A DNA stretch of 64,000 bases from Streptomyces halstedii. Lineage in GTDB: Bacteria > Actinomycetota > Actinomycetes > Streptomycetales > Streptomycetaceae. Below are positions 7,475-64,000 of this stretch, in pieces. Numbering within the stretch: position 1 is the first letter of the stretch; each line of letters starts with the position of its first letter. The translations under genes and the position numbers were made by a program. The DNA lies in the NCBI GenBank assembly GCA_000720535.1, contig JOAZ01000015.1, positions 108,262 through 172,261 of the forward strand, written 5' to 3'. The notes below the pieces were generated by a model. It did not search any database. It saw only the letters and a program-made list of their open reading frames with translations, and was not told the origin of the DNA.

Positions 7475-10400
7475 ATGCAGATCCGGCTGACCGTCCTCGC
7501 GCCGCGCAGCGGCCAGACCCCGCCACGCGCCTGCGACGTGCTCGTCACCGCCCCCGCGGGGACCTCGCTCGCCGCCGTCGCGTCGAACCTCGCCGCCGCC
7601 GTGACCGGGCCGGAGGGCTCCCAGAGCGGCGGTGCCGTCGTGCTGTACGCCGGACGCGAGCGCCTGGACGCCCAGCGCTGCGCCCTCGGCGAACCGCCCC
7701 TGGTGGACGGCGCGGTGCTCTGCCTCCAGGCACCCGGCGAGGACGAGGGCGCGGACGACGCCGTCCCCGCGCGACTCCACGTCGTCGCCGGGCCGGACGC
7801 CGGCGGGGTCCACCTGCTGCACGGCGGCCCGGTCCGCGTCGGCCGCTCCGCCGAGGCGGACGTCCCGCTCGACGACCCGGACGTGTCCCGGCTGCACTGC
7901 GCGGTGACGGTCTCCGAGGACGGCCGGGTCTCGGTCGCCGACCTCGGTTCCACCAACGGCACCTCGCTGGACGGCGCACCGGTCCACGACCGCCCGGTCC
8001 GGCTCGCCCCGGGGGCCCTGCTGCGGCTCGGCGAATCGACGCTCCGGCTCACCACGGGCCGCCGCGCACCGGCGCTCACGACCACCCCGGACGGCGAGGG
8101 CCACCTCCGGGTGGCCCGGAACCCGGGCGCCACCGCCCCCGCGGGGGATCCCGACGACGACCGCGCCCACACCTTCGGCACCCCCCACCCCGGCGGCCAC
8201 GATCCGTACGGGGCGTACGGCGAGCGCCCGGCGGGCCACGACGAGACCCGGCGCGCGAGCGGCGCGGCCGCCGAGCATCCCACCCATGGACGCGGCGCCC
8301 CGCTCACCCCCGAGGAGGCCCCCCGGCGCGGCGGCATAGGAGCCTGGGCGCGGCGGCTGACCGGCGGCCGGGCCGAAGGCCCCCACGGACCGGCCGGGCA
8401 GCACCCCGGCGCGGGCCCGGAGGACGGTGCCGAGGGCGCCCCCGCGTACGCCGGGCCCGACCGTTCCCCGGCCGCCCCCGAGGGGACCTGGCCCGACCCG
8501 GCGGCCGTCCTGCTCACCGCGCTGGGACCCGGTCCCCGGCTGTGGGAGCGCGACCCCGGACACCCGGAGACGCTGGTCGTCCGCCTGGGCACCACCGACC
8601 GGGCCGATCTGCCCGCCGTGCCGGTCACCGTGGGACTGCGGGAGGCCGGGTCGCTCGGGCTCGCCGGGCCGCGCACCCGGCTCTCCGGCCTGGCCCGCTC
8701 CACCGTGGCGCAGCTCGCCGCCCTGCACTCGCCGTTCGACCTGGAGATCGTGCTGATCAGCACGGACCGCGCGCGCGGCGTGGAGGAGCGGCGGCGCGAG
8801 TGGTCCTGGCTCGGCTGGCTGCCGCACCTGCGCCCGCTGCACGGCCAGGACTGCCGGCTGCTGCTGGCCTTCGACCGGGAGCAGGCCGACGCCCGCGCCG
8901 CGGAGCTGGTCCGCCGCATGGGCGACGGGCCGCTGGGCCCCGGCTGGGCCGGCGCCGACGGACCGGCGGTGGCCGGGGCCGCCCGCGCGCACACCGGCCC
9001 GTTCACGGTGGTCGTGCTGGACGGCGACCCCGGCTCCGCCGCGCTGCGCGAGACCATGGCCGGGCTGGCCTGGGCCGGCGCGGCCTCGGGCATCCACCTG
9101 GTCTGCCTGGCCGAGACCCCGGCCGCCTCCCCCACCTCTCCGGTGGACGCCACGTACGACACCGCGTGCCGGGTCTCGATCCCGTTCCGCGAGTGCGGCG
9201 CGGTCGCGATGCTGAGCGGGGACGTGGCGACCGCGTTGCGGCTGCTGCGCACGACGGGCGGCCAGGTCGCGGGACACGGCACCGTCGCGACGGTGGACGC
9301 GGTGTCGGCGGCCTGGGCCGAGCGGTTCGGACGGGCGCTGGCGCCCCTGCGCGACGCGGGCGCGCTCACGGGACGGCCGGTGGCGGCGGCGCTGCCCCCG
9401 TCGGCCCGGCTCCTGGACGAGCTGGGTCTGGCCCGTGCCACCCCGGCGTCCCTGATGGCCCGCTGGGCGTCGACGGCGGAGGACCAGCCGGGCGCTACGG
9501 TCCGCGCGGCAGCCGTGTCCGGGGACCTGGAGACCTCCGGCTCCGGCCGCACGCCGAACGCCGGCGCCCGCGTGGGGGCGCAGCGCGAGTCCCCCGAGTC
9601 CGGCCGCCCCGCCGGACACGCTCCGGGGGCGGGACCGGATCACGCCGGCACCGGGCACCCCGGCCGCACCGGCTCCGTCCGTACCGACAGCGGGTCCTCC
9701 GCCTGTTCCGGCGAGCCCTGCCCCGGCGGTCCCTACCCCGGCGGCGGGCCCACCCGTTCGGGGCCGGGGCGGTCCTCCTATCCGTCCGCCACCGCCGTAC
9801 CCGCGCAGCGCCGGGCCGCCGCGCCGCCGGGTGCCTCCCACGCCGGGCGGCCCGTGGTCGTGCTCGGAGCCGGGCCCCGGGGCCCCCTCTCCGTCGATCT
9901 GACCGAGGAGGGACCCCATCTGCTGATCGAGGGGCCCCAGGGCAGCGGCCGTACGGAACTGCTGCGGGCGATCGCCGCCTCCCTGGCGTCCGCGGACCGC
10001 CCCGACCGCCTCGGCATCCTGCTGATCGACGGAGGGGGACGCGACGGTCTGCGCCCCTGCACGGAGCTGCCGCACGTCTTCACGCACCTGGTCGCCTCGG
10101 ACCCCGTACGGATGCGGGAGTGCGCCCAGGCACTCGGCGGTGAGCTGAAGCGCCGCGCGGAGCTGCTGGGCGGCCTGGACTTCGCCACCTGGCACGCGCG
10201 GTACGAGGAGGCGCGGGCGCTCCCGGGCGGCAGGCGCCCCTTCGGTCCCGGTGACCGGCGTGGCGACCTCGACTCCCCGGCCAGCAGCACCCTGCGGCTG
10301 CGGCCCGCCGCCCCGCCGGCTGATCCCGGCCCCTCCCCGCTGCCCCGGATCGTCGTCCTGGCCGACGACTTCGACGCCCTGGTCGCCCCGGCGCTCGGCA

Positions 10401-57855: not shown

Positions 57856-58545
57856 GTGTTGGCAGCGGGGGGCGCCACAACAGCGGCACGGCTCGTCGGC
57901 GCGGGGGACGGGACACCCCTGGACGTCCCGCGCCTCCCCGCCCGGAAGGCGGCCGAGGACGAGTTGTCCGACCCGATGTACCACCAGCACGACCCGAACC
58001 TCCTCGAACGCGCCATCGACCGTCTCTGGTCCTGGGTGGGCGACCTCTTCGACGGAGCCGCGGGGGCCGCACCCGGTGGCCCGATCGGGCTCGTGGTGAT
58101 CGTCCTCGTCGTCCTCGGCCTCGTCGCCGCCCTCTGGTGGCGGCTGGGAACACCGCAGCGCGTCGGACGTCCCACGAAGACGCTCCTCGGCGGCACCGCC
58201 CGCAGCGCGACCGACCACCGCGAGGCGGCACAGGCACATGCCGACGCCCACCGGTGGACGGAAGCCGTCCAGGAACGCATGCGCGCCCTCGTCCGCTCGC
58301 TGGAGGACCGGGCCGTGCTCGACGCCCGCCCCGGCCGCACCGCGGACGAGGCGGCCGCCGAAGCCGGCCGGGTCCTGCCCGAGCAGGCCGCCCGGCTCCA
58401 CACCGCCGCCCGCGTCTTCGACGACGTCACGTACGGAGGGCGCACGGCCGACAAGGCCGCGTACCAGAGCATGTGCGCACTCGACCGCGACATCGAGACC
58501 GCCAAGCCCCTGCTCGGCACGGGCCCGGTCGGAGCCGCCCGATGA
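57856..58545 (+). CDS. DUF4129 membrane protein
   Basis: A 229-residue protein with a single membrane segment (PIGLVVIVLVVLGLVAALWW, about 74-93) and a C-terminal cytoplasmic DUF4129 region (about 110-225): AAQAHADAHRWTEAVQERMR, ALVRSLEDRAVLDARPGRTA and FDDVTYGGRTADKAAYQ. DUF4129 sits in MoxR/DUF58 operons in many actinobacteria. The start is GTG with TAGGAG upstream, overlapping the stop of the previous gene. It is probably part of a membrane complex with the DUF4350 and MoxR proteins. Function is unknown. Confidence 0.85.
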   Translation: MLAAGGATTAARLVGAGDGTPLDVPRLPARKAAEDELSDPMYHQHDPNLLERAIDRLWSWVGDLFDGAAGAAPGGPIGLVVIVLVVLGLVAALWWRLGTPQRVGRPTKTLLGGTARSATDHREAAQAHADAHRWTEAVQERMRALVRSLEDRAVLDARPGRTADEAAAEAGRVLPEQAARLHTAARVFDDVTYGGRTADKAAYQSMCALDRDIETAKPLLGTGPVGAAR

Positions 58546-59813
58546 CCGAGACCTCCATGCCCGTCCCCGCGCCCGGCGCCCCGCGGGGACCGGAAACGCC
58601 GTCTCCCACGACGTCGGTGTCCCGCGCCCCCCAGCAGATCTGGCGGCGGGTACGCGGACTGCTGCTCGCCGCACTGCTCCTCGTGGCCGCCGGCATCACC
58701 TTCGCCGCCCTCACCTCCGATGGCGCCCACGGGCGCCTCGATCCCCGCTCCCCCGACCCGACCGGCAGCCGCGCCGTCGCCGAACTCCTCAAGAACCGAG
58801 GCGTCACGGTCGACGTCGTCACCACGCTCGACGAGGCCACCGCCGCCGCCGGCCCCGACACCACGCTCCTCGTCGCCGGCCCCAACGTGCTCACCGCCTA
58901 CCAGCGGCACGTCCTCCGGGCGGCCACCGGCGACTCCTCGGGACGCACGGTCCTCGTGGCACCCGGACGCTCGTCCGTCGGCACACTCGCCCCCGGCACC
59001 CACGCCGACTCCGCGGGCCCCGTGACATCCCGGCCGGCCGACTGCGACCTGCCCGCGGCGCGTTCCGCGGGCACCGCCGACACAGGGGGCTTCCGCTACC
59101 GCACGGACACCCATGACGCCGTCGCCTGCTACCCCGCCGACGGCCTCCCCACCTTCCTGGTGCTCCCCGAGCACGGAACCGGCGACACCGTGCTCCTCGG
59201 CTCCCCCGACCTCCTGCACAACGACCGTCTCGACCAGCAGGGGAACGCGTCGCTCGCCCTGCAGACCCTCGGTTCCCGCCCTCATCTCGTCTGGTACCTC
59301 CCCTCTCTCTCCGACCCGTCCGCCATGGAGAACCCCGGCGACGGAAGCGGCAGTGGCGACGACGGCGCAGCGGTCGGGAGCGGGTTCCTCGACCTCGTCC
59401 CCTCCGGCTGGCTCTGGGGCACCCTCCAACTCGCCCTCGCGGCCGTCCTCGCCGCGATCTGGCGCGCCCGCCGTCTCGGCCCGCTGGTCACCGAACGACT
59501 CCCCGTGGCCGTCCGGGCCTCCGAATCCACCGAAGGCCGGGCCCGCCTCTACCGCAAGACCAACGCCCGCGACCGGGCCGCCGAAACCCTGCGCTCCGCC
59601 ACCCGCGACCGCCTCGCTCCCCTCGTGGGAGTACCGATCCGCGACGCCCAGTCCCCCGAGTTCCTGATTCCCGCCGTCTCCGCCTGCCTCGGCATCCCCT
59701 CGGACAGCGACGCCGCCGCACTGCTCTTCGGCCCGGCTCCGGCCGACGACGCCGCTCTCGTTCTCCTGACCGACCAACTCGACGCCCTCGAAAGAGAGGT
59801 ACGCACCTCATGA
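58542..59813 (+). CDS. DUF4350 membrane protein
   Basis: A 423-residue protein. A membrane segment at about 39-61 (GLLLAALLLVAAGITFAALT) is followed by an outer DUF4350 domain (about 65-260) beginning DPTGSRAVAELLKNRGVTVDVV, then a second segment near 288-306 (LWGTLQLALAAVLAAIW) and a cytoplasmic tail (about 310-423) with ERLPVAVRASESTEGRARLY. The layout matches DUF4350 proteins found with MoxR ATPases. Its ATG overlaps the previous TGA by four bases, and its end overlaps the MoxR start. No enzyme motif is seen. Confidence 0.85.
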   Translation: MTETSMPVPAPGAPRGPETPSPTTSVSRAPQQIWRRVRGLLLAALLLVAAGITFAALTSDGAHGRLDPRSPDPTGSRAVAELLKNRGVTVDVVTTLDEATAAAGPDTTLLVAGPNVLTAYQRHVLRAATGDSSGRTVLVAPGRSSVGTLAPGTHADSAGPVTSRPADCDLPAARSAGTADTGGFRYRTDTHDAVACYPADGLPTFLVLPEHGTGDTVLLGSPDLLHNDRLDQQGNASLALQTLGSRPHLVWYLPSLSDPSAMENPGDGSGSGDDGAAVGSGFLDLVPSGWLWGTLQLALAAVLAAIWRARRLGPLVTERLPVAVRASESTEGRARLYRKTNARDRAAETLRSATRDRLAPLVGVPIRDAQSPEFLIPAVSACLGIPSDSDAAALLFGPAPADDAALVLLTDQLDALEREVRTS

Positions 59814-60829
59814 GCGCCCCGACCCCGGAGCCCACCGAGCACGTGGACACCGCAGGGAACCCGACGGCACCCGTCTCGTCCGACCGGGCCCGCGCCTCCC
59901 TGGAATCCTTGCGCTCGGAGATCGCCAAGGCCGTGGTCGGCCAGGACCCCGCCGTGACGGGCCTGGTCGTCGCCCTGCTCTGCCGGGGCCATGTGCTGCT
60001 CGAAGGCGTGCCTGGCGTGGCCAAGACACTCCTCGTCCGCGCCCTCGCGGCCGCCCTCGAACTGGACACCAAGCGCGTCCAGTTCACGCCCGACCTGATG
60101 CCGAGCGATGTCACGGGCTCACTCGTCTACGACGCCCGTACCGCCGAATTCTCCTTCCAGCCGGGGCCGGTGTTCACCAACCTCCTGCTCGCCGACGAAA
60201 TCAACCGGACCCCTCCGAAGACACAGTCCTCCCTTCTGGAGGCCATGGAGGAACACCAGGTAACCGTCGACGGTGCCCCCCGCGCCCTGCCCGAGCCGTT
60301 CCTGGTCGCGGCCACCCAGAACCCCGTCGAGTACGAGGGGACCTATCCGCTCCCCGAGGCCCAGTTGGACCGCTTCCTTCTCAAGCTGACGGTGCCGCTG
60401 CCGTCCCGCGAGGACGAGATCGCGGTCCTGACCCGCCACGCGAGCGGTTTCGATCCGCGGGACCTCGACGCCGCGGGCATACGGCCGGTGGCCGGCCCCG
60501 CCGACCTGGAGGCCGCACGGGAAGCGGTGGCCAAGACCCAGGTCTCCGCCGAAATCGCCGCCTACGTCGTGGATATCTGCCGTGCCACGCGTGAATCCCC
60601 CTCGCTCACCCTCGGTGCGTCCCCTCGCGGCGCGACCGCCCTGCTGTCCACCGCACGTGCCTGGGCCTGGCTCACCGGCCGGGACTACGTCATCCCGGAC
60701 GACGTGAAGGCCCTGGCGCTCCCCACACTCCGCCATCGCGTCCAACTGCGGCCGGAAGCCGAGATGGAGGGAGTCACCACGGACTCCGTCATCACCGCCG
60801 TCCTCGCCCACGTGCCCGTCCCCCGATGA
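59810..60829 (+). CDS. MoxR-family AAA+ ATPase
   Basis: A 339-residue AAA+ ATPase. Walker A is EGVPGVAKTLLVRA (about 64-77), Walker B is LLADEINRTPPKTQ (about 123-136), sensor 1 lies in VAATQNPVEYEGTYPLPEAQLDR (split here, about 160-182), and the lid includes ASPRGATALLSTARAWA. MoxR proteins act as chaperone-like factors for partner proteins, often von Willebrand factor A or DUF58 proteins encoded next door, as here. The start ATG overlaps the DUF4350 stop by 4 bases and has GAGAGG upstream. The substrate is unknown. Confidence 0.95.
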   Translation: MSAPTPEPTEHVDTAGNPTAPVSSDRARASLESLRSEIAKAVVGQDPAVTGLVVALLCRGHVLLEGVPGVAKTLLVRALAAALELDTKRVQFTPDLMPSDVTGSLVYDARTAEFSFQPGPVFTNLLLADEINRTPPKTQSSLLEAMEEHQVTVDGAPRALPEPFLVAATQNPVEYEGTYPLPEAQLDRFLLKLTVPLPSREDEIAVLTRHASGFDPRDLDAAGIRPVAGPADLEAAREAVAKTQVSAEIAAYVVDICRATRESPSLTLGASPRGATALLSTARAWAWLTGRDYVIPDDVKALALPTLRHRVQLRPEAEMEGVTTDSVITAVLAHVPVPR

Positions 60830-60839
60830 GGCGGTGACC

Positions 60840-62153
60840 ATGGCCCTCACCGGACGAACCGCACTGCTGGCCGCCTTGGGATCACTCCCCGTAGGCATTC
60901 TGGCCCCGAGCTGGACAGGCATGCTCGCGGTCAATGTGCCGCTCTCGTTGGCAATTCTGTGCGACTACGCCCTGGCAGCGCCAGTGCGTACGCTGCGGTT
61001 CACCCGAACTGGTGATACATCTGTTCGACTCGGTGACACGGCGAACGTGCGACTCACCGTAACCAACCCCTCGGGCCGTCGCCTTCGCGCTCAGCTCCGC
61101 GACGCCTGGCCGCCCAGCAGTTGGTCGTCCGAGGCCGAACAGGCCGCGTCCCACCACCGGTTCACGGTGCCCGCCGGAGAACGCGGCCGCCTCACCACAC
61201 TTCTCCGCCCCTCCCGGCGGGGGGACCGCCAGGCACAGCACGTCACCGTCCGCTCGTTCGGCCCCCTGGGGCTCGCCGCCCGCCAGGGGCGCCACGACGT
61301 CCCGTGGACGGTCAGGGTCCTGCCGCCGTTCACCAGCCGCAAGCATCTCCCCTCCCGTCTCGCGAGGCTCCGCGAACTGGACGGCCGTACCAGCGTGCTG
61401 ACCCGGGGAGAGGGCACCGAGTTCGACAGCCTCCGTGCCTACGTCCCGGGGGACGACACCCGTTCCATCGACTGGCGGGCCACCGCACGCCAGTCGTCGG
61501 TGGCCGTGCGTACCTGGCGCCCGGAACGGGACCGCCACATCCTCGTCGTCCTCGACACCGGCCGCACGTCCGCCGGCCGGGTCGGGGACGTACCGCGCCT
61601 GGACGCGGCCATGGACGCCGCCCTGCTCCTCACCGCGCTGGCCGCCCGTGCGGGTGACCGGGTGAACCTCCTCGCCTACGACCGGCGGGTGCGAGCCCGT
61701 GTCCGCGGCGGGGCGGCCGGGGGCGATGTCCTGTCGGCCGTCGTCACCGCCATGGCCCCTCTGGAACCGGAGCTCGTGGAGACGGACGCCCGGGGCCTGA
61801 GCACCGCCGCCCTGGCCCACGCGCCCCGGCGTTCCCTGCTCGTGCTGCTCACGAGCCTGGACGCCGCTCCGGTGGAAGAGGGCCTGCTGCCGGTCCTCCC
61901 CCAACTCACCCGGCGCCACACCGTGCTGGTGGCCTCCGTCGCGGACCCTCACGTCGAGGCCATGACCCGGGGCCGGGGGTCGATCGAGGCGGTGTACGGG
62001 GCCGCGGCGGGCACGCGGACGGCCGAGCAGCGCCGCCGGACCGCCGATCAGCTCCGCCGCCACGGTGTGACCGTGGTCGACGCCACTCCCGACGCACTCG
62101 CTCCGGCACTGGCCGATGCCTATCTGGCTCTGAAGGCCGCCGGACGCCTCTGA
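60840..62153 (+). CDS. DUF58 protein (MoxR partner)
   Basis: A 437-residue protein. Two membrane segments near the N-terminus (ALLAALGSLPVGILAPSW and VNVPLSLAILCDYALA) are followed by a beta domain (about 60-150) and the DUF58 hallmark EGTEFDSLRAYVPGDDTRSI (about 193-212) with DWRATAR. A von Willebrand A-like part follows (RDRHILVVLDTGRTSAG, about 226-242), in which the metal-binding DxSxS pattern appears only as DTGRTS. Proteins of this type work with MoxR ATPases. ATG at 60840 was preferred to GTG at 60834 because AGGCGG lies at proper spacing only for the ATG. This closes the five-gene operon. Confidence 0.88.
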   Translation: MALTGRTALLAALGSLPVGILAPSWTGMLAVNVPLSLAILCDYALAAPVRTLRFTRTGDTSVRLGDTANVRLTVTNPSGRRLRAQLRDAWPPSSWSSEAEQAASHHRFTVPAGERGRLTTLLRPSRRGDRQAQHVTVRSFGPLGLAARQGRHDVPWTVRVLPPFTSRKHLPSRLARLRELDGRTSVLTRGEGTEFDSLRAYVPGDDTRSIDWRATARQSSVAVRTWRPERDRHILVVLDTGRTSAGRVGDVPRLDAAMDAALLLTALAARAGDRVNLLAYDRRVRARVRGGAAGGDVLSAVVTAMAPLEPELVETDARGLSTAALAHAPRRSLLVLLTSLDAAPVEEGLLPVLPQLTRRHTVLVASVADPHVEAMTRGRGSIEAVYGAAAGTRTAEQRRRTADQLRRHGVTVVDATPDALAPALADAYLALKAAGRL

Positions 62154-62215
62154 CGGCTCCTCCCGTACCTCCGGGGCCGTCCCGGTTCGGGAGGGGGTCG
62201 TCACACGGCACGACG

Positions 62216-62246
62216 TTGACCTTCGACTGGGTTGAAGCCCAATGAT
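62216..62246 (+). promoter_or_regulatory. MerR-type promoter with 19-bp spacer and central dyad
   Basis: TTGACC (62216-62221) and AATGAT (62241-62246) are 19 bases apart, the over-long spacing typical of MerR-controlled promoters. The spacer carries the dyad CTTCGAC-TGG-GTTGAAG (62221-62237), matching at 6 of 7 positions per arm. Transcription should begin about 62252-62254, at the GTG start codon at 62253, implying a leaderless mRNA and autoregulation by the encoded MerR protein. Confidence 0.65.
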
Positions 62247-62252
62247 GGCGGC

Positions 62253-63392
62253 GTGCCACATTCCGACTTGATGCCCATCGGGCTCTTCGCCCGCCGCAGT
62301 GGTCTGACCGCCAGCGCGTTGCGCTTCTACGCGGACTCAGGACTGCTGCGCCCTTCCGAGACCGACCCGGTGACGGGATACCGCTACTACGGCGCCGCCC
62401 AGCTCACCCGGGCGATCACGCTGCGTCGGCTCCGCGAACTGGACATGTCTCTCCCCGTCGTCGAGACGGTTCTCGATTCCGGCGCCGAGGAGGCGTCGCG
62501 GCTCATCGACGCGCACGTGGCGAAGGCCGCCGGGGACGCTATGGCGGTGCGGCACAGAGCGGGCGTGCTCAAGGCGTCGTTGGCCGGTGCGCCCGGTCCG
62601 CCGATCGCCGTCCTGAAGGGGCCTGTGCTGGCCGACGCGGTCGAGCAGATCCTGACGGCGACGACGCGGGACCCGGGGATGCCGGTACTCGGTGGTCTGC
62701 GTATCGAGACCGGCCCCGAAGCGGTCACACTCACCGCCACCGACCGGTACCGGCTTTCCACCCGCACGCTGGTTCCGGCCAAGACACCGACACAGACCGA
62801 GACACCGACACAGACCTGGGCTGCCACGGTCAGGGGTGACGAACTGCGGGAGGCGGCCGCCGAGATCCGCCGCAGCCCGTCCGTCCGCATCGAGGCGACG
62901 CCGTTCGGGGTCCTACTCCGGGCCCCCGACCGAGAAGACCAGTTCTGCGGGTTGCTGACCGAGGAGTTCCCCGACTACCGGCTGATGCTCGCGTCCCTGG
63001 GCGACGTCACGACCCGGGTGACGGTCGCGAAGGGGCTGCTCCTGCGAGCCCTGGAGGACCACTCCGCCGAACGCGTCGCGCTGGATGTGGCTGATCACCG
63101 TCTGTGGGTGCTGCCGGCCCAGGACGAAGCCTGTGAAGTCTCGCTTGCCTCCGCCGTGACCGGGCAAAGCCTTCGGGTCTGGTTCGACCTGACCACGCTC
63201 TATCCGGCCGTCAGTACCGCCATCGGCCCGGACGTGATGCTCGATCTCCGGGGGCCCCAGCGCCCTGCCACGATTTGCTCCGCCGACCGAGGCGATCTCA
63301 CCACCCTGGCCATGCCCGTCAAGCCCGACCACCCCGCCGGAATACCACACGACAAGGACCGCCTCCATGCCTCCTGCTCCCACCAGCGCTGA
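62253..63392 (+). CDS. MerR-type regulator fused to a beta-clamp-like domain
   Basis: A 379-residue protein from the GTG at 62253. The N-terminal MerR helix-turn-helix (about 6-75) reads IGLFARRSGLTASALRFYAD and DPVTGYRYYGAAQLTRAITL, then a short coiled section (about 75-110). The rest (about 115-370) resembles DnaN sliding-clamp domains: LKGPVLADAVEQILTATTRD, ALTATDRYRLSTRTL-like TATDRYRLSTRTLVP (about 168), EEFPDYRLMLASLG (about 236) and LDLRGPQRPATI. It lacks the N-terminal of a normal clamp, so it is unlikely to replace DnaN; the domain may sense a ligand or protein. A short repeat KTPTQTETPTQT interrupts it (about 180). The ATG at 62271 and TTG at 62232 are alternative starts. It overlaps the next gene by 26 bases. 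Confidence 0.82.
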   Translation: MPHSDLMPIGLFARRSGLTASALRFYADSGLLRPSETDPVTGYRYYGAAQLTRAITLRRLRELDMSLPVVETVLDSGAEEASRLIDAHVAKAAGDAMAVRHRAGVLKASLAGAPGPPIAVLKGPVLADAVEQILTATTRDPGMPVLGGLRIETGPEAVTLTATDRYRLSTRTLVPAKTPTQTETPTQTWAATVRGDELREAAAEIRRSPSVRIEATPFGVLLRAPDREDQFCGLLTEEFPDYRLMLASLGDVTTRVTVAKGLLLRALEDHSAERVALDVADHRLWVLPAQDEACEVSLASAVTGQSLRVWFDLTTLYPAVSTAIGPDVMLDLRGPQRPATICSADRGDLTTLAMPVKPDHPAGIPHDKDRLHASCSHQR

Positions 63393-63909
63393 TCCGACCA
63401 TGGCCGCCATCGGCGAAGCCGTCCTCGAAGGCCGAGCCGGGGACCACGCTTCCGCTCGCCGGAAGCTCCTGGCCCTCTGGTCCACGTGTGGTGCCGGCGG
63501 CGACCCGCTGCACCGCTGCGCCCTCGCCCACTACTTGGCTGATCTGTACGAGGACCCTGCCCAAGCCCTGGCCTGGGACATCCGCGCCCTGGACGCGGCG
63601 AACGCCGTGACCGAGCAACGTGTCCAGGAGCATCACGCGGGTGTGCACATCGCGGGCTTCTACCCGTCCCTGCACCTGAATCTCGCTGACAACTACCGTC
63701 GGCTGGGCTCCTTCGAGGCTGCCACCGAGCACATCACCGCGGCGGGGGCCCATGTCCCCGATCTGCCCCAGGGCCCTTACGGCGCTCTTCTCCGCGCCGC
63801 CATTCCTGAGGTGGCCGAAGCCATCGCACGCCGGGACACCGCCCCGCGTGCGTCCGCGCCCGGCCCCGGTCCGAAAGGCACGGCACCAAGCGGCACGAAA
63901 AGGCTCTGA
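63367..63909 (+). CDS. TPR-like helical protein downstream of the MerR fusion
   Basis: A 180-residue, mostly helical protein. AAIGEAVLEGRAGDHASARRK, ALAHYLADLYEDPAQALAWD and SLHLNLADNYRRLGSFEAAT look like tetratricopeptide-type helix pairs (about 12-140). The tail (about 155-180) is Pro/Gly/Ala-rich. No catalytic motif is visible. It begins 26 bases before the end of the MerR-clamp gene, with AAGGA upstream, so the two are co-expressed. A role as partner of that regulator is an inference only. It is followed at once by the rRNA terminator. Confidence 0.78.
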   Translation: MPPAPTSADPTMAAIGEAVLEGRAGDHASARRKLLALWSTCGAGGDPLHRCALAHYLADLYEDPAQALAWDIRALDAANAVTEQRVQEHHAGVHIAGFYPSLHLNLADNYRRLGSFEAATEHITAAGAHVPDLPQGPYGALLRAAIPEVAEAIARRDTAPRASAPGPGPKGTAPSGTKRL

Positions 63910-63920
63910 AACGCAGAAAA

Positions 63921-63945
63921 GCCCCGTGCCACAAGGGCACGGGGC
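63921..63945. terminator. bidirectional terminator between TPR-like gene and rRNA operon
   Basis: GCCCCGTGCC (63921-63930), loop ACAAG, GGCACGGGGC (63936-63945). On the minus strand it is followed by TTTTC, a classical intrinsic terminator for the rRNA operon; on the plus strand by TTTCC. Confidence 0.93.
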
Positions 63946-63960
63946 TTTCCCGGAATAATA

Positions 63961-64000
63961 GTTCGGCGGCGTCCTACTCTCCCACAGGGTCCCCCCTGCA
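63961..64000 (-). rRNA. rrf: 5S ribosomal RNA (3' end only)
   Basis: Read on the minus strand, the last 40 bases are TGCAGGGGGGACCCTGTGGG then AGAGTAGGACGCCGCCGAAC, the 3' end of Streptomyces 5S rRNA. The rest of the rRNA operon lies beyond the window. The mature 3' end is placed at 63961 because the conserved sequence stops there. Confidence 0.93.

Follow-up and report, generated by a model that had tools for sequence, protein, structure and literature searches.

A gene close to the end of a 64,000-nucleotide stretch of Streptomyces halstedii DNA, hereafter the window, raises the question of what part of the replicative sliding clamp DnaN might be doing at the C-terminus of a MerR-type transcription regulator. 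A sequence-only reading had proposed such a fusion, together with a MerR-type promoter that places the start codon at the expected start of transcription. The open reading frame lies on the forward strand, as do the other features of the cassette, ends at 63392 and can be opened by either TTG 62232 or GTG 62253. The TTG is an unlikely start because it falls inside the promoter, and we take the gene to span 62253..63392, with a GTG start that is probably leaderless and a product of 379 aa (the Pfam search was run on the 386-aa reading). The gene joins a MerR helix-turn-helix (HTH) and a long, presumed dimerization helix to a C-terminal part matching DnaN domains 2 and 3, without domain 1.

The HTH (62271..62480; aa 7-76, or 14-83 in the 386-aa numbering) lies at the N-terminus and matches Pfam MerR_1 at 51.5 bits against a cut-off of 21.6 (E 1.1e-13). 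In the AlphaFold monomer model it is followed by a single long helix (62484..62582; aa 78-110), presumed to be the MerR dimerization coiled coil. The counterpart of DnaN domain 2 (62601..63002; about aa 117-250) is recovered by Pfam, TIGR00663, AlphaFold and Foldseek, and that of domain 3 (63012..63320; about aa 254-356) by the last three of these. The central DnaN domain PF02767 scores 31.5 bits, above its cut-off of 27, and PF00712 (16.4 of 24.4) and PF02768 (12.9 of 27) stay under theirs. Residues 128-364 align to positions 129-366 of the 367 in TIGR00663 (E 9.8e-11), with a score of 41.2 bits that is below the curated cut-off of 137.65 and with clamp domain 1 absent from the protein. The top PDB sequence match is the Mycobacterium marinum clamp 6d47 (E 1.2e-13). 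The AlphaFold model (pLDDT 89.9, pTM 0.75) retrieves sliding clamps in all of the 50 Foldseek matches listed from the PDB, the best of these being 6fvn (E 6e-19, TM-score 0.57 across the whole query). The proposed union of a MerR regulator with a DnaN-like part is confirmed by MerR_1, PF02767, TIGR00663 and 6d47, and profile search and structure prediction of the C-terminal part both return a clamp fold; as to extent, the earlier claim of DnaN domains has to be narrowed, since only domains 2 and 3 are present. One ordinary DnaN is encoded elsewhere in the same genome.

The promoter is made up of a -35 hexamer TTGACC (62216..62221) and a -10 hexamer AATGAT (62241..62246), both seen also in homologs, and a 19-nt spacer (62222-62240) containing a CTTC..GAAG dyad that recurs in homologs. 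The full operator, CTTCGAC-tgg-GTTGAAG (62221..62237), was read from the sequence and from its retention in homologs, this imperfect dyad not being reported by the repeat search. A sigma-70 scan limited to 16-18 nt spacers found no promoter here, as expected from a 19-nt spacer. The distance from the -35 element to the start codon is 37 nt in all 16 loci of the genus that belong to the window's clade (clade A, below) and in 71 of the best 80 named loci; among the others it is 34 nt in three and 31 nt in one, and in five a search for TTGAC[CT] gave no pair. Distances of 29-34 nt in several clade B and C genes are those of the first in-frame start taken by the script, and the C genes also have an in-frame GTG 37-38 nt downstream of TTGACC. 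Because this spacing is conserved, the fusion gene is probably read from a leaderless start. Both parts of the earlier promoter claim, the 19-nt spacer with its central dyad and the start codon at the expected transcription start, are thus borne out by conservation across homologs. The DNA upstream of the promoter diverges between loci.

With up to 2 mismatches allowed, the clade-A operator pattern (62216-62237) occurs exactly once in each of 15 out of 15 clade-A genomes, and the reversed pattern, used as a control, has 0 occurrences. This one match is the window promoter itself in the genome of origin and, in the remaining genomes, sits immediately before the fusion gene. The clade-C operator is likewise single in 12/12 genomes and the clade-B operator in 9/11, the two misses having variant -10 regions. 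A chance promoter was discarded, given the conservation in homologs and the single match per genome. As the operator is found once per genome, at the regulator's own promoter, the fusion has no other visible target in the genome at this search sensitivity, and we infer that it regulates its own gene.

The fusion is matched at E 1e-20 or better in 50 of 150 genomes of the genus. By identity these 50 places sort into clade A (17 including the window, at least 62%), clade B (11, 36-41%), a C-like group (19, 30-35%; ten of these were fetched and examined first) and three partial or truncated copies. An order-wide search with the family profile returned matches in 293/293 genomes, a figure which gives no family frequency because many of the matches cover only the DnaN or the MerR half. 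In a tree of the clamp half (13 A, 9 B, 9 C and 31 DnaN, with an arbitrary root), the fusions split from DnaN with support of 100/98, and A, B and C each form one group. The best 80 named loci are chiefly those of Streptomyces, with others in Nonomuraea, Nocardia, Rhodococcus, Gordonia, Mycolicibacterium and other actinobacteria. Alignment A2 holds 51 of the named loci plus the window, leaving out 29 of the best 80; the partial L067, L069 and L073 are absent from the protein alignments, and L049, L052, L059, L063 and L078 from A1. In L059, of clade B, a short tandem duplication near the gene start disturbs the reading frame relative to its relatives. One fusion-bearing genome also encodes a second full-length DnaN (G013:C1:5443750-5444874; 175.8 bits, over the cut-off), a possible griR-like copy.

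Does the clamp half still work as a clamp, or has it been kept for its peptide-binding pocket? In the window protein, the pocket includes the loop TDRYRL (62739..62756; aa 163-168, E. coli clamp 172-177) and the motif LAMP (63306..63317; aa 352-355, E. coli clamp 360-363). Pocket residues were taken from PMC11139829, in E. coli clamp numbering, and make up 18 of 226 clamp columns. Eight clamp columns are invariant in 80 distinct fusions and seven of these are pocket residues (155, 172, 174, 176, 242, 362 and 363; P 4.5e-8), and of 31 positions conserved in 31 DnaN proteins, the fusions retain 9 of 11 in the pocket versus 5 of 20 others (Fisher P 0.003), values which ignore relatedness, concern residues conserved in DnaN itself too, and are indications, not proof, that selection keeps the pocket. 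Across the 80 fusions, subsite I has a mean entropy of 0.65, against 1.83 for subsite II and 1.69 for the other columns: subsite I is almost fixed and subsite II varies like the rest. The ring-interface positions 272, 273 and 304 are not retained. Four presumed inner helices together carry a charge of -4.7 in the fusions versus -1.5 in DnaN, although one of the four is less acidic in the fusions, against the trend; the helix ranges, like interface position 304, are our own assignments. Given the absent domain 1 and the altered interface and charge, identity as a full DnaN or ring clamp was set aside. Because pocket subsite I has been kept, and ring-dimer residues and much of the DNA-facing charge have been lost, the clamp half is likelier to be a ligand sensor than a working clamp.

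The clades differ in this pocket (62 A, 9 B and 29 C compared). Both subsites are nearly host-DnaN-like in clade C, and clades A and B keep subsite I with subsite II altered. In clade A, N320 is replaced by E/D and Y323 by T, and the window protein carries D, T, Q and K at positions 320, 323, 344 and 365. According to PMC10817943, both subsites are filled by the natural clamp-binding cyclic peptides griselimycin and the mycoplanecins, with a hydrogen bond to Arg365 made by mycoplanecin A. Since subsite II is altered in clade A and its entropy is no better than that of the remaining columns, the known clamp antibiotics may misfit the clade-A pocket, and this change also makes it probable that the window's clade senses something related but different. 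The clade C pocket, to judge by its residues, fits best with ligands of the griselimycin/mycoplanecin type.

Clade C has a further feature. At the boundary between coiled coil and clamp, its genes contain a Shine-Dalgarno sequence with an in-frame start codon, which is ATG in all but one gene and GTG in that one; this was seen first in 10/10 C genes and then in 20/20 held-out ones. Within the Shine-Dalgarno site, the arginine codon is AGG in 20/26 cases versus 33/1185 elsewhere in the same genes; confining the comparison to AGG versus CGG, because the Shine-Dalgarno site needs the final G, leaves 20/26 versus 33/499 (P 4e-17). From this excess of AGG, selection appears to act on the DNA at this site, beyond the protein. 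By the same criterion, internal starts are scattered in clade A (11/97 rows, some of which represent the same genome) and occur at scattered places in 6/11 clade B genes; in the window gene, no further in-frame start from which the ligand domain could be made by itself was found.

The window gene is instead followed by a partner gene (63367..63909; 180 aa), the first 26 nt of which lie within the fusion gene. Such partners are all-helical, TPR-like proteins of 160-180 aa (model pLDDT 89.7) and lie directly downstream of the fusion in 16/16 clade-A loci of the genus and in 71 of the best 80 named loci, with a relative in the same position in 7/11 B loci. In 62 named loci with a called partner, the genes overlap by 4 nt (17 loci) or are separated by gaps of 7-116 nt. 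The fold search with the partner gave solely TPR-like matches, with E above 0.01, and a PDB sequence search found no relatives. In alignment A3, a motif R-x-S-A-P-G is present in the tail (window 63850-63870) in most rows shown, in a region of low model confidence. Clade C is self-contained: the partner is absent downstream in all 30 of its loci (0/30), and these have no widely shared neighbor gene. At L072 (about 7600-9350), a clade-C fusion is followed after 240 nt by a recA-like gene and then by a gene for a 190-aa protein.

We consider it about an even chance (roughly 0.5) that the locus is an autoregulated TipA-like switch, in which a clamp half mimicking the target senses a clamp-binding peptide, most likely a DnaN-directed antibiotic. 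A dimeric switch of the MerR type would occupy the dyad within the 19-nt spacer of its own promoter, and a peptide able to bind the clamp, most likely an antibiotic peptide that targets DnaN and is perhaps of the griselimycin type, would enter the pocket that lies between domains 2 and 3 of the clamp half. Its entry would bring about the usual MerR promoter distortion and turn on the leaderless operon, yielding more of the fusion protein and its TPR-like partner. As the sensor mimics the target, the product could also soak up the ligand. In clade C, the start led by the internal ribosome-binding site would give a clamp-only protein from the same mRNA, like TipAS from tipA; in clade A, the partner gene would replace the short form. 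The broader proposal is that an actinobacterial family has made half of the essential replication clamp into a nomadic, self-inducing protein that both senses and soaks up peptide antibiotics directed at the clamp, with the clade C sponge arising by the internal start and the others relying on a TPR-like partner and a retuned pocket; this we advance more tentatively, as rather less than an even bet. The makeup of the fusion suggests that a target of antibiotics was recruited by bacteria as a means of detecting them. Among the titles and abstract openings listed by literature searches, mostly of material outside subscription journals, none describes a MerR-clamp fusion.

The main rival, which we regard as unlikely and which keeps the link from replication or repair to transcription suggested by the sequence-only reading, is that the pocket binds the cell's own clamp-binding motifs, those of polymerases and repair proteins, and reports replication stress, with the partner acting in repair. 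As the clade C pocket hardly differs from the one in host DnaN, cellular motifs could bind it, but subsite II is altered in A and B. Some partner match is held by 140/150 genomes of the genus, the cassettes' own copies included, and in 9 of 11 other loci (L100, L102, L103 and L105-L110 among L100-L110) the partner relative adjoins a uracil-DNA glycosylase gene, so placed that it is possibly an unstudied Streptomyces repair protein; a DNA-repair role of the partner itself is possible. The recA-like gene 240 nt downstream of the fusion at L072 would also suit a stress sensor, but that neighborhood is a single locus. A patchy, nomadic distribution and an operator present only once per genome are likewise a poor fit to a core stress response.

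The same mobility could speak for a guard against phages or mobile elements, with the clamp half baiting invader proteins that attach to the host's clamp, and with the operon as the defense response. The clade-A loci compared share little DNA beyond the fusion and partner genes, and the flanking genes of A and C loci are mostly dissimilar, a common neighborhood being seen in seven B loci, some related Nocardia and a few close pairs. Fifteen plasmid records have a fusion match, which in seven covers at least 80% of the query, and both plasmid loci that we opened carry the fusion and partner pair near insertion-sequence and transposase genes. Plasmid pADI95-16b (L288 1-4405) carries, upstream of the pair, a gene annotated as dnaE and another for a hypothetical protein of 356 aa. 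This small nomadic two-gene unit is what a guard might look like, but the sole PADLOC match of the fusion is in the HTH, to mad1 (E 3e-7), on which account a known defense system was set aside, and the partner has none. The partner is moreover TPR-like, with no toxin signature seen in Pfam, PDB and fold searches, and clade C lacks the second gene altogether; we hold the guard to be improbable. A phage origin was rejected, as nine phage records match over only 20-27% of the query, all in the HTH region; a scan of viral contigs for the fusion gave one 29% partial match. Insertion at tRNA genes was rejected as well, any tRNA occurring in only 5/18 loci examined and none in the window; at L050, the fusion gene is preceded by a tRNA-Pro some 0.2 kb away. 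The last 40 bases of the window (63960-64000, minus strand), where the contig ends, resemble what we take to be part of a 5S rRNA gene, and Rfam over 58000-64000 gave nothing at the gathering score, this cut-off 5S-like end included.

To docking rather than sensing we give a similarly small chance. Here, the pocket would constitutively bind the partner or a polymerase and merely place the regulator, the gene controlling itself alone. The tight linkage to the partner, and a natural single open reading frame combining the two in L133, agree with docking; yet no obvious QLxLF motif is seen by eye in the partner alignment, and subsite I is still fixed in clade C, which is without a partner. A two-domain mini-clamp ringing DNA, three units giving six domains as in PCNA, would account for the retained clamp fold with two domains per chain, but is highly improbable against the more negative presumed inner helices (three of the four), the loss of interface positions 272, 273 and 304, and the fact that MerR proteins form dimers.

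If the fusions are indeed a family of sensors and sponges for clamp-directed antibiotics, natural products targeting the clamp would be commoner and more varied than the griselimycin and mycoplanecin types known today. Should the pocket respond to compounds that bind the clamp, the family would plainly exemplify a target of antibiotics redeployed to detect them. The gene would then serve directly as a biosensor for drugs acting on DnaN, which PMC10817943 describes as a validated target in tuberculosis, and the clades with different pockets would point to clamp ligands yet to be found. In the annotated plasmid records opened, the genes are labeled only 'MerR family transcriptional regulator' and 'hypothetical protein', and the proposed switch offers a testable function for genes so annotated.

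Among known systems, the DnaN sliding clamp shares with the fusion domains 2 and 3 and the peptide pocket, whereas the fusion has no domain 1, scores under the DnaN cut-off and has reduced ring-interface residues and DNA-facing charge. GriR and MypR, the second DnaN copies that confer self-resistance, resemble the fusion in being second clamp-derived proteins, with a link to clamp antibiotics that for the fusion is only proposed; as described in PMC10817943, they are DnaN genes within antibiotic clusters, whereas the fusion is a two-domain fragment on a regulator, with no antibiotic gene cluster seen linked to it. Regulators of the BmrR type resemble it in joining a MerR HTH to a larger C-terminal drug-binding domain (PMC7762955) and in a promoter spacer of 19-20 nt, which is general for the MerR family, but the domain of BmrR is GyrI-like and that of the fusion a clamp. 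Also close is the TipA class (TipAL/TipAS, AlbA). TipA has a second start giving a drug-binding short form and autoregulation (PMC7762955), and AlbA is similar (PMC6078987). The ligand domain of the fusion is half a sliding clamp and not TipAS, for which Pfam PF07739 finds no match in the window protein or four relatives, and clade A, with the window, has a partner gene in place of the short form. The fusion nonetheless shares with this class the succession of MerR HTH, presumed coiled coil and proposed ligand domain, along with the autoregulation that we infer here, and in clade C it has a second in-frame start from which a separate ligand domain would be made.
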